Below, piece by piece: positions 7,490 through 11,000 of a stretch of 55,260 nucleotides of DNA. A program made the translations under genes and the position numbers. The stretch's first letter is position 1. Every line of letters begins with the position of its first letter. The DNA comes from Planctomycetota bacterium (GTDB lineage: Bacteria; Planctomycetota; Phycisphaerae; UBA1845), in the NCBI GenBank assembly GCA_016860685.1, contig BOJX01000009.1:1-55260 (forward strand), written 5' to 3'. Below the pieces are notes generated by a model. That model made no database searches. It worked only from the letters and a program-made list of their open reading frames with translations, and was not told the DNA's origin.

Positions 7490-8599
7490 GTGACATCAGG
7501 CTGCGACATTCTTTACGTCATCACGGACCTCGACATCGGGGGCGTTCCGCTGCACCTGTTCCGGTTGGCGACGGCGATGCGCGACCGGGGAAAGCGCGTC
7601 TTGGTCGTGTCGCTGTCTCCGCCGGGTCCAGTGGGGGAGCGGTTGCGCGGGGCGGGCGTCGAAGTCCTCTCGTGCGAGGCGGCGGGGGGACGGGATATCC
7701 GCGTATTTTCGCGCCTGGCGCGGATCATCCGGCGCGTCCGCCCGCGGCTGGTTCATGCGCTTCTTTTTCACGCGAATCTCGCCGCGAAAGTCGCGGCGCG
7801 CCTGGCGTGTCATCCGCGCGAGCAGGTGTTGTGCGAGATTCAGACGGTGGAGATCGAGCGGCGGTGGCATCGGATCGTGGATCGCTGGACGCACGGGGGG
7901 TGCCGCGCGACGATCGGGAACTCGCCGTCGGTGGTGGAGCATCTGGCGCGCGAGGCGCGGATCCCGGCGGAGAAGCTGAGACTGGTGCGCGGCGGCGTAG
8001 ACGTGGAGGCGCTGGCGGCGGCGCCGGCGGCGGACCGGGCGGCGCTCAACCTCGCGCCGGACGATCGAATCCTGCTGTGGGTCGGGCGCCTGGACCCGAT
8101 CAAGGGACTCGACGTTCTTCTTCGCGCCTTTGTTCGGATTTCCGCGGCGGTTCCGGAGGCGGTGCTGCTTCTGGCGGGGGACGGCGCGCTGCGTGGATCG
8201 CTGACCGCGCAGGCGTCGGCGCTGGGGATCGCGGAGCGGGCGCGCTTTCTCGGGATGCGGCGAGACGTGCCCTCGCTGATGAAGATCGCCGAGGCGTTCG
8301 TGTTCCCGTCGCGGACGGAGGGGCTGCCGAATGCGATTCTGGAGGCGTTCGCGTGCGGATGTCCGGTGGTCACGACGGACGCGCCCGGGTGTCGCGATCT
8401 TGTCACTTCCGGCGTGACGGGGCTGGGGACGCGCGTCGGCGACGAGGCAGGCCTGGCTGAAGCGGTGATCCGGATCATGAGCGACAAGTCTCTGGCATCT
8501 TTGCTGGCGGCGGCGGCGCGTCATGAAGTGTCAACAAACTGGCACTTTTCGGGAACGATCGAAGCGTATGAGCACGTCTACGCGGAGCTGCCGGGCTGA
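7490..8599 (+). CDS. Glycosyltransferase family 4 protein
   Basis: A 369-aa GT-B fold glycosyltransferase. The N-terminal half opens with the typical acceptor-domain strand and glycine loop (VITDLDIGGVPLHLFRLA). The C-terminal half has WVGRLDPIKGLDVLLRAF and the nucleotide-sugar-binding region FPSRTEGLPNAILEAFACG, with the EX7E-type glutamates of family GT4. It should transfer a sugar from a nucleotide-sugar donor to a lipid or glycan at the cytoplasmic membrane face; the acceptor is unknown. The start is GTG 7490. It follows the PEP-binding protein closely and ends about 100 bases before the strong promoter region of mraZ. Confidence 0.85.
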   Translation: MTSGCDILYVITDLDIGGVPLHLFRLATAMRDRGKRVLVVSLSPPGPVGERLRGAGVEVLSCEAAGGRDIRVFSRLARIIRRVRPRLVHALLFHANLAAKVAARLACHPREQVLCEIQTVEIERRWHRIVDRWTHGGCRATIGNSPSVVEHLAREARIPAEKLRLVRGGVDVEALAAAPAADRAALNLAPDDRILLWVGRLDPIKGLDVLLRAFVRISAAVPEAVLLLAGDGALRGSLTAQASALGIAERARFLGMRRDVPSLMKIAEAFVFPSRTEGLPNAILEAFACGCPVVTTDAPGCRDLVTSGVTGLGTRVGDEAGLAEAVIRIMSDKSLASLLAAAARHEVSTNWHFSGTIEAYEHVYAELPG

Positions 8600-8698: not shown

Positions 8699-8750
8699 TT
8701 GACAGTTGACTTTTTTTCTTGATTCCGTAACACCGCAATATATAGTGGGC
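8699..8750 (+). promoter_or_regulatory. Promoter region of the mraZ/dcw cluster
   Basis: A conspicuous AT-rich island in GC-rich DNA. Candidate -35 elements are TTGACA (8699-8704), TTGACT (8706-8711) and TTGATT (8719-8724); candidate -10 elements are TATATA (8739-8744) and TATAGT (8741-8746). The best spaced pair is TTGATT and TATAGT with 16 bases between. A leader of about 150 bases to the GTG of mraZ would follow. Confidence 0.6.
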
Positions 8751-8904: not shown

Positions 8905-9375
8905 GTGGCGAACCGGTACTTCATTGGCGAATACACGAAACCGCTCGACGAGAAGAATCGGTTGCGCATCCCGGATTCGATGCAGCGTGTGATTGAGGTG
9001 CAGCAGGGGGAAAATCGAGGGCTTTTCATCGTGTTGGGGGAGCAACCGGGGTCTTTGTCGCTTTATACCGAGCCCGTGTTCGACGAACTGGTGACGCGGT
9101 TGAAGACGGACACCTTGGAGTCGCCGGAGGCGATCGACTTCGAGTTGAATTTTTTCCCGCAGGTGCATCACGTGACGGGGGACGCGCAGTGGAGGTTCGT
9201 CCTGCCGGAGCAATTGCGAAAGAGAGCCGGCCTGAAGGATCAGGTGGTTCTCGCAGGTCGAGGACGGCGGATCGACGTCTTCGAGCCTGAAGCCTACGCA
9301 TCGGCCACGGCGGGCCGAAAGGAGGGGTGGCCGAACTGGTCGCGCTTCCTGCGGATGGAATCGCGGAACAAGTGA
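8905..9375 (+). CDS. mraZ: MraZ, SpoVT-AbrB-fold transcriptional regulator
   Basis: A 156-aa protein beginning with the MraZ signature: YFIGEYTKPLDEKNRLRIP matches the FxGEYxHxLDxKxRLxIP motif, and the second half repeats it as VTGDAQWRFVLPEQLRKRAG with a GRGRRIDVFEPEAY ending. MraZ forms ring-shaped oligomers and regulates the dcw cluster from its first position, the position it holds here. The start is GTG 8905, fixed by the conserved motif; no ATG is near. About 640 bases separate it from rsmH, unusual because these two genes normally adjoin closely. Confidence 0.9.
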   Translation: MANRYFIGEYTKPLDEKNRLRIPDSMQRVIEVQQGENRGLFIVLGEQPGSLSLYTEPVFDELVTRLKTDTLESPEAIDFELNFFPQVHHVTGDAQWRFVLPEQLRKRAGLKDQVVLAGRGRRIDVFEPEAYASATAGRKEGWPNWSRFLRMESRNK

Positions 9376-9905
9376 TGTGCGTGCGGAGCGAGGGGGCGCG
9401 GCCGCAGCGAGTGGAAGTCGCGGGGTTGGCGCACCGTGAGACAGGGACGTGGCGGCGCGTAAGCGTCGGGAGACGTTCTTGGGCGCGCAGCGGAACAAGG
9501 CGGTTCCGCTTCCGCGGGTATCAGCGGGCTTTCCGGGAGAGGATCCGGGAGCTTTTAAGCAGAATCGGGGCATCGCTTCACGGTTCAGGACGGGCGCTGA
9601 AGCGGTGCCGGGTGGGATCTGCGGGGGACTTCGAGCCGATCCGGAGGCGGCGGGTCGCCGTGCATGAGAGTATGCCCGGTGGTCCGGTCGACGACCGGAG
9701 GCGAGTGCGGAACCGGTGAGGGGAAGGAGACCTTCAGGAGCTTCGCGGCGCAGCAGCATGAGGCGACCTTGCCGCGAAACTGTGTTCTGACCGGCCGGTT
9801 CGATGTCGGACTTCGTCCGCCGCGAGGCGGTGCGGCAGATCACCACGAGCGCGGGATCATCCCGTCGTCAGGGATGCGCGACAGATCCCGCCTTTTTTTT
9901 GCGGG
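9376..9905 (+). ncRNA. Candidate structured RNA between mraZ and rsmH
   Basis: No convincing protein is encoded here; the overlapping track ORFs are Arg-rich shadows. The strand can fold into many strong, mostly non-overlapping hairpins: AGCGTC-GGGA-GACGTT (9462-9477, GNRA-type loop), AGCGGAAC/GTTCCGCT (9489-9510, 8 bp), CATCGCTTCA/TGAAGCGGTG (9571-9607, 10 bp with one G-U), TCCGGTC/GACCGGA (9683-9699, 7 bp, 3-base loop), GAAGG/CCTTC (9723-9735), TTCGCGGC/GCCGCGAA (9742-9778, 8 bp), and CCGCC-GCGA-GGCGG (9817-9830, GNRA loop). It ends in a terminator-like structure with a T-run. It could be a free ncRNA or the long leader of rsmH. The conserved cores of RNase P RNA, tmRNA and SRP RNA were looked for and not seen. 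Confidence 0.45.
9851..9900 (+). terminator. Attenuator-like terminator with alternative stems before rsmH
   Basis: Segments GCGGGATC, ATCCC, GGGAT and GATCCCGC follow in order and are directly succeeded by C and a run of eight T. First and fourth pair perfectly over 8 bp; third and fourth form a compact terminator hairpin; second and third, or first and second, form competing hairpins. It lies about 115 bases before the rsmH start, so it could terminate the mraZ transcript or attenuate the downstream operon. Confidence 0.6.
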
Positions 9906-10016: not shown

Positions 10017-11000
10017 TTGTCCGGGGGTGGGCGAGGGCATACTCCGGTCCTGCTCGACGCGGTGATGCGCTGGCTGCGGGTTCAGCCGGATGATGTGGTG
10101 GTGGACGCCACGATCGGGCTGGGAGGACATTCAGCGGCGTTAGGCTCACGGCTTGGGTCCGGGGGAACGCTGATCGGCCTGGACCGCGACCCTGAAGCCT
10201 TGCGGAAGGCTGGAACGGTCCTTGCGGGGCTGGCATGCCGAGTCGTGATTCGGCAAGCGAATTTCGGTGAGTGCGCAGCGGTGCTGGCGGAGACGGGCAT
10301 CGGTCGTGCGAATGTGATCTTCGCGGATCTGGGTGTGAATTCCGAGCAGCTCGACGATCCGGCGCGAGGGTTTTCGTTTCAGGCGGACGGTCCGCTGGAC
10401 ATGCGGCTGGATCCGGATGCGCCAATGCAGGCATCGGACCTGGTCAACCGCCTGTCCGAGAAGGAGCTGGGCGACCTGATTTACGATAACGCGCAGGAGC
10501 CGGCGAGCCGGAAGATCGCACGTCGGATTCATGAGGCGCGTCGCAGCGGCCGGATTATGACGACGGGGCATCTGGCCAGGCTGGTGTGCGAGGCGCTGGG
10601 GGTTGACCCGTCGTCGAGGCGAAGCCGGATTCACCCGGCGACGCGGACGTTTCAGGCGCTTCGGATCGCGGTGAATGACGAGATGAGCGCGTTGGACCGG
10701 TTTCTGGAAGCCGCGCCGGACCTGCTGCACGCTGGAGGCCGGATCGGTGTGATCAGCTTTCACAGCGGGGAGGACCGGCGGGTCAAGCGTGATTTTCTGC
10801 GGCGTCGCGGCGAGGGCGTATACCGGATCGTGACAAAAAAACCCGTCGTCGCCGACGAGTCGGAGCGCGACGCGAATCCGCGGTCGCGCAGCGCGAAACT
10901 CCGGGTGGCGGTGCGTGAGCCGGCGGGGGAGGCGTGGATCGCGGCGGGAGGCGCCCCTGAGCCGGATGAGGGGAGTGACGAGACGGGCGACGAATCCTGA
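10017..11000 (+). CDS. rsmH: 16S rRNA (cytosine1402-N4)-methyltransferase RsmH (MraW)
   Basis: A 327-aa class I SAM-dependent methyltransferase that modifies C1402 in the decoding region of 16S rRNA. The N-terminal GHTPVLLDAVMRWL motif, SAM-binding VVDATIGLGGHSAALGSRL, the central DLGVNSEQLDDPARGFSF and the C-terminal ISFHSGEDRRVKRDFLRRR are all characteristic. The start is the rare TTG 10017, chosen because the conserved HTPVLL motif lies only seven codons in; AAGGGG lies about nine bases upstream. Length is normal for the family. It is the first gene after the structured 530-base stretch and probably opens the main dcw transcription unit. Confidence 0.92.
   Translation: MSGGGRGHTPVLLDAVMRWLRVQPDDVVVDATIGLGGHSAALGSRLGSGGTLIGLDRDPEALRKAGTVLAGLACRVVIRQANFGECAAVLAETGIGRANVIFADLGVNSEQLDDPARGFSFQADGPLDMRLDPDAPMQASDLVNRLSEKELGDLIYDNAQEPASRKIARRIHEARRSGRIMTTGHLARLVCEALGVDPSSRRSRIHPATRTFQALRIAVNDEMSALDRFLEAAPDLLHAGGRIGVISFHSGEDRRVKRDFLRRRGEGVYRIVTKKPVVADESERDANPRSRSAKLRVAVREPAGEAWIAAGGAPEPDEGSDETGDES

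Follow-up and report, generated by a model that had tools for sequence, protein, structure and literature searches.

A structured RNA downstream of mraZ in Phycisphaerae as a candidate CsrA-titrating sponge

The small RNAs CsrB/CsrC and RsmX/Y/Z of the Gammaproteobacteria carry GGA motifs in hairpin loops, end at an intrinsic terminator and occur in genomes which encode CsrA; CsrA sponges of this kind are known so far mainly from that group. Hairpins bearing an ANGGAN hexaloop are bound by RsmE (PMC7652899), and fliW is anti-correlated with BarA-UvrY, the system which drives CsrB/RsmZ-type sRNAs (PMC4682653). The available description of Xanthomonas RsmU (PMC7694677) presents it as an mRNA-derived sponge of RsmA. 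UpsM was described as an sRNA from the 5' leader of the dcw cluster in Rhodobacter sphaeroides (PMC5089854). The literature searched, the coverage of which is incomplete, contained no account of a CsrA-antagonist RNA from Planctomycetes.

A candidate for such an RNA lies between mraZ and rsmH of a Planctomycetota bacterium of the class Phycisphaerae (assembly GCA_016860685.1, contig BOJX01000009.1). The stretch of 55,260 nt which was analysed is referred to as the window. Its RsmH has its nearest named counterpart, at 98%, in 'Phycisphaerae bacterium isolate MAG_25'. A sequence-only reading of the window had proposed a novel structured RNA in a gap of about 640 bases, which contains no credible protein and is closed by a terminator with a T-run. 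The spacer from the mraZ stop codon to the opening of the rsmH frame measures 641 nt, none of the protein frames in the window copy is credible or matches Pfam, and a stem followed by U8 is present (Table 1). A simple terminator scan of the region did not call this structure, presumably because its apical loop exceeds the loop limit of 8 used in the scan. Between positions 8550 and 10100, the sole sigma-70-like promoter match (one found, 0.1 expected) is situated upstream of mraZ, which suggests that mraZ and the spacer RNA are co-transcribed. Scanning the spacer against Rfam at gathering and at permissive thresholds gave nothing credible; neither a Csr/Rsm family nor any other known family was matched. 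The mraW RNA motif lies upstream of mraW (rsmH). It is listed for Actinomycetales (RF01746, PMC2864571), and its covariance model had no match in the spacer. UpsM is likewise a non-coding RNA closed by a terminator in the dcw cluster region; however, by its description it lies upstream of mraZ and belongs to the Rhodobacteraceae, whereas the RNA reported here follows mraZ and bears loops of the CsrA type.

Beyond the genus, a similarity search with the spacer DNA gave chance matches only; therefore, the spacers of relatives were gathered via rsmH and mraZ. Each of the 50 genomes of the order which could be resolved has an mraZ-rsmH spacer of 258-806 nt. A strict hairpin was defined as an A-N-G-G-A-N hexaloop on a stem of ≥ 4 bp. 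All 71 such hairpins of the 50 spacers lie on the mraZ strand, the opposite strand having 0, while shuffled sequences gave 2.3 ± 1.6 (maximum 8). Their density is 2.6 per kb in the spacers compared to 0.15 per kb of strand at other loci of the same genomes. A mid-spacer hairpin termed M2 accounts for 28 of the 71 and another 8 are near the 3' end; the remaining 35 are found elsewhere, hence the signal is not merely one inherited hairpin. Judged by loop and stem, the recurrent hairpins of the relatives are of the shape bound by CsrA/RsmE. The earlier suggestion of a leader that responds to the state of the wall or of division is not supported, since the recurrent feature is this type of binding site and not a ligand-binding aptamer, and since the hairpins stay with mraZ, not with rsmH, where the two genes are separated. 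Inside the mraZ coding regions of relatives, 26 further ANGGAN hairpins were observed, some of them conserved (e.g., window positions 9230-9245), which are possibly additional CsrA-type sites or a result of codon constraint.

M2 has the form GCGA[ANGGAN]UCGC on an outer stem and shows clear covariation among the homologous spacers. In its alignment, 90.5% of cells are paired, 27 cells are doubly changed and 7 of the 9 pairs have changed on both sides. On none of three measures (paired percentage, covariation score and number of cells changed twice) did any of 500 shuffles come up to the alignment, and slid versions of the stem had 27-52% of cells paired. A second element, M3, forms the apex of the terminator; its sequences were selected through a search for the core CANGGANG. 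M3 is clear by eye and statistically weaker than M2: 78.9% of cells are paired compared to at most 53.5% when slid, and several covariation measures are no better than in shuffles. RNAalifold gave no consensus for M3, probably because the register of its bulge varies.

The M2 covariance model matched the mraZ-rsmH locus only, in 27 genomes (E < 0.02). In family f8, in which mraZ and rsmH lie apart, the hairpins follow mraZ. Ahead of rsmH, six regions of f8 were read: four have no ANGGAN hairpin on either strand and two have one each. Within the same class, locus L168 contains 7 ANGGAN hairpins in 500 nt and L167 contains 3. Outside the class, mraZ normally runs directly into rsmH, almost always without such hairpins. 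Among 40 loci outside the order, not counting the separately tallied class set to which L167 and L168 belong, an ANGGAN hairpin was found only in the class member L143 and in the phylum loci L154 and L175.

In the window copy, the folding energy of the spacer is better than that of dinucleotide-shuffled controls (z -2.45; 0 of 100 shuffles as good), in line with the folded RNA proposed initially. The 50 homologous spacers behave alike: their mean z is -2.9, 35 of them fall below -2, and a Wilcoxon test gives p 5e-15. As the opposite strand folds with nearly equal stability (-2.4), the energy alone does not reveal the strand. Several hairpins noticed in the sequence beforehand are present, namely at 9464-9475 and 9490-9509, a long stem at about 9571-9607 and CCGCC[GCGA]GGCGG at 9817-9830. 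While these stems are real in the sequence, not every listed stem is conserved, as a relative with 90% identity no longer has the one at 9683-9699. Of the 20 GGA motifs in the window RNA, 6 are predicted to be open, compared to 2.9 ± 1.3 in shuffles (maximum 5 of 25) and none on the opposite strand. A relaxed loop count gave 12 on the plus strand and 3 on the minus strand, which is a moderate excess only over the 7.7 in shuffles. Strict ANGGAN hairpins are absent from the window copy, the M2 covariance model had no match in the window genus, and the GGA of M3 may be masked there by a competing CAUCCC/GGGAUG pairing (0.19 open). The window genus is a divergent member of the RNA family; hence, more confidence is placed in the family than in the window copy.

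Table 1. Positions of features at the mraZ-rsmH locus of the window, and loci of RNA-B in related genomes.
Feature	Position or locus	Strand	Remarks
Sigma-70-like promoter match, TTGATT-16-TATAGT	8719..8746	+	upstream of mraZ; consensus match only
mraZ	8905..9375	+	PF02381
Structured RNA region	9376..9900	+	taken from mraZ stop to end of terminator U-run
M1, GCCGCAGCGAGTGGAAG	9401..9417	+	reverse complement of the first 17 nt (5' block) of RNA-B
Hairpin CGUC[GGGA]GACG	9464..9475	+	tetraloop GGA unpaired with probability 1.00; also present in G002 and G003
Hairpin GCGGAAC[AAGGCG]GUUCCGC	9490..9509	+	hexaloop with GGC replacing GGA, degenerate site
Hairpin CCGG[GAGAGGAU]CCGG	9533..9548	+	loop GGA 0.91 open; not kept in G002/G003
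Long stem, apical GUUC[AGGAC]GGGC pentaloop	9571..9607	+	GGA fully open (1.00); not assigned to M2 of the relatives
Hairpin UGAGG[GGAAGGAGA]CCUUCA, core AAGGAG	9717..9736	+	GGA 0.97 open; core in 4/4 genus members
Intrinsic terminator, stem GCGGGAUC/GAUCCCGC followed by U8	9851..9900	+	stem 9851-9891; read from sequence
M3, terminator apex GUCGUC[AGGGAU]GCGCGAC	9864..9882	+	CA-N-GGA-N-G core aligned in 38 sequences
rsmH (mraW)	10017..11000	+	PF01795; TTG start in ORF list
RNA-B loci	L192-L194, L196-L201, L203, L205-L236		

Within the genus, the spacer is 97% identical to that of G002, with four-fold sites 91% identical in mraZ and 87% in rsmH, and 88.3% identical to that of G003, with 79% and 73%, respectively. 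Conservation of the spacer thus exceeds that of silent sites, which places the spacer under purifying selection. In the comparison with G001, which diverges most within the genus (about 40% at four-fold sites), three blocks are still kept, each of which includes GGA: GCCGCAGCGAGTGGAA (9401-9416), GAGGGGAAGGAGACC (9718-9732) and the terminator apex GTCGYCAGGGATG (from 9864). Accordingly, the regions kept furthest across the genus are 9401-9416, 9717-9736 and 9864-9882. Purifying selection, covarying pairs in homologous spacers and the lack of an Rfam family support the initial proposal of a conserved structured RNA.

In 59 of 60 relatives csrA was found, and fliW likewise in 59 of 60; as csrA is almost universal in the order, its co-occurrence with the RNA tests nothing. 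The genome from which the window derives encodes two CsrA proteins, both with an MLVL start and a VHR motif, which we take to include the RNA-contact residues Leu4 and Arg44. One of the two csrA genes adjoins fliW. With CsrB/RsmZ-type RNAs the mraZ-linked RNA shares repeated exposed GGA loops, pronounced in the family and moderate in the window copy, the 3' intrinsic terminator and a host genome encoding CsrA; it differs in its lack of an Rfam match, in its position next to mraZ and in the presence of fliW in the host class. The loop type differs as well: relatives have RsmE-type ANGGAN loops, whereas the strict test gave 0 for E. coli csrB. The strict test therefore detects sites of the RsmE type specifically, and a count of 0 in the window copy is not a disproof. 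In the relaxed count, csrB has 9 loops compared to 1 on the other strand, comparable to the window spacer.

On balance, we regard the mraZ-linked spacer RNA as a likely CsrA-titrating sponge, similar to CsrB/RsmZ in action, unrelated in sequence and outside those Rfam families. Transcribed together with mraZ, the spacer would form a structured RNA whose 3' end is at the terminator near 9900 and which would offer several GGA loops, which in most relatives are true ANGGAN hexaloops on short stems. Binding of CsrA dimers to these loops would lower free CsrA, as for CsrB/RsmZ in Gammaproteobacteria, and in this way the activity of CsrA would become tied to expression from the mraZ promoter. The sponge would act on top of control by FliW, presumably also present in these bacteria carrying fliW and csrA. 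RsmU, as far as its description goes, is similar in being a CsrA/RsmA-sequestering RNA derived from an mRNA, but comes from another phylum. If the proposed titration is true, CsrA-titrating RNAs extend well beyond the Gammaproteobacteria, CsrA is connected to the MraZ/dcw locus, and the fliW-containing Phycisphaerae make joint control of CsrA by FliW and an sRNA directly testable.

A 13-mer of the spacer, GCAGCGAGTGGAA (9404-9416), is found in 58 of 60 relatives. Much of this recurrence stems from its being antisense to another conserved element, termed RNA-B, which is apparently an undescribed small RNA. Read on the strand opposite to the 13-mer, this element shows a TATAAT-like box in several genomes and then CUUCCACUCGCUGCGGCACCC, a loop containing GACCGCGCCAA, GGGUGCCGCACGCC and finally a run of U. 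RNA-B is almost invariant over about 63 nt, has a terminator at its end, occurs in varying gene contexts and is unlinked to mraZ. A model search found RNA-B once in most genomes of the order (53 of 60 at E < 1e-13, one weaker at 5e-9), and it had no Rfam match at the gathering threshold. The exact pattern is absent from 392 genomes of the phylum, including the genome of the window; this assembly is 90% complete, and three congeners have RNA-B. The 5' block and the apical loop of RNA-B look like antisense seeds. M1, the spacer element complementary to the 5' block, may be a pairing site for RNA-B. With at most 2 mismatches, it occurs in 25 of 50 spacers and never on the reverse strand (0.28 expected). 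Most core changes in these copies are A-to-G or C-to-T and by our reading preserve pairing with RNA-B via G-U; across all listed spacers, including the chance-prone ones with 3 mismatches, 15 of 31 core changes preserve pairing. Whole-duplex energies of spacers with RNA-B from RNAduplex did not discriminate (mean z -0.41, 3 of 28 below -3), GC-rich sequences forming long duplexes anyway; therefore, an ungapped seed test was used instead. In family f4 (L116, L119), M1 is found close to rsmH, in the 3' end of the spacer, and not close to the mraZ stop, as though this module had been relocated. Another possible site for RNA-B, GGCGCGG, which is present on the plus strand of 23 of 50 spacers and on the minus strand of 2, was considered and rejected, as the strand bias of G-rich sequence could explain the counts; the motif reads the same backwards, thus a reversed-motif control carries no information.

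Several other explanations have to be weighed against titration. The spacer might simply be GC-rich, with chance stems and an ordinary terminator, since high GC makes stems common and both strands fold about equally well. For the family, this is contradicted by the tests of shuffles, strand, conservation and covariation. To hold for just the window copy, it would require a loss of constraint, of which the conservation comparison shows none, and we consider this explanation highly improbable. The region might also be mainly the mRNA of a small protein, the hairpins being a CsrA-controlled leader and a terminator and the window genus a decayed remnant. Within the class, the gene for a conserved small protein of about 70-80 AA with the pattern xRLxRVRxLGGxFxxVxFS lies in the mraZ-rsmH spacer or follows mraZ, and five members scanned gave no Pfam family above threshold. 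Its ORF is present in 24 related genomes (e.g., L026, L035, L086, L143, L167 and L170), including class members such as L143 and L170 in which hairpins are few or absent, and is missing from the window genus; a conserved frame, the caveat attached to the first proposal, thus applies to relatives and not to the window genus. However, 32 of the 50 spacers lack the ORF and still have 40 hexaloop hairpins, every one of them on the mraZ strand; hence, the ORF does not explain the hairpins. As the window spacer without the ORF is still more conserved than silent sites, we judge the mRNA explanation improbable, if less so than chance stems.

The main rival is a role in cis, in which CsrA, perhaps with RNA-B, acts on the mraZ-rsmH intercistronic RNA and sets mraZ mRNA stability or read-through at the terminator into rsmH and the remainder of the cluster, without titration in trans. 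The fixed position of the hairpins behind mraZ, the CsrA-type loop on top of the terminator and M1 about 18-85 nt past the mraZ stop in f1 genomes with a good match fit this role. So does the number of strict sites, which is 1-3 per RNA in most genomes and low for a sponge. On the other hand, the hairpins persist where rsmH is elsewhere, and the 7 sites of L168 exceed the need of one cis switch. We infer titration rather than cis control and hold the latter to be rather unlikely. Slightly less doubtful, though still tentative, is an extension of the sponge to a hub with two inputs: in one class of planctomycetes, the mraZ-linked sponge and FliW would both control CsrA, RNA-B would pair with the 5' end of the sponge at M1, and transcription of division genes would be linked to CsrA-controlled lifestyle genes.

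Besides rsmH at this locus, many relatives carry a second, weaker rsmH-like gene (e.g., G002:C2:48170-49096). Some of these second genes are situated within open frames of > 800 codons.
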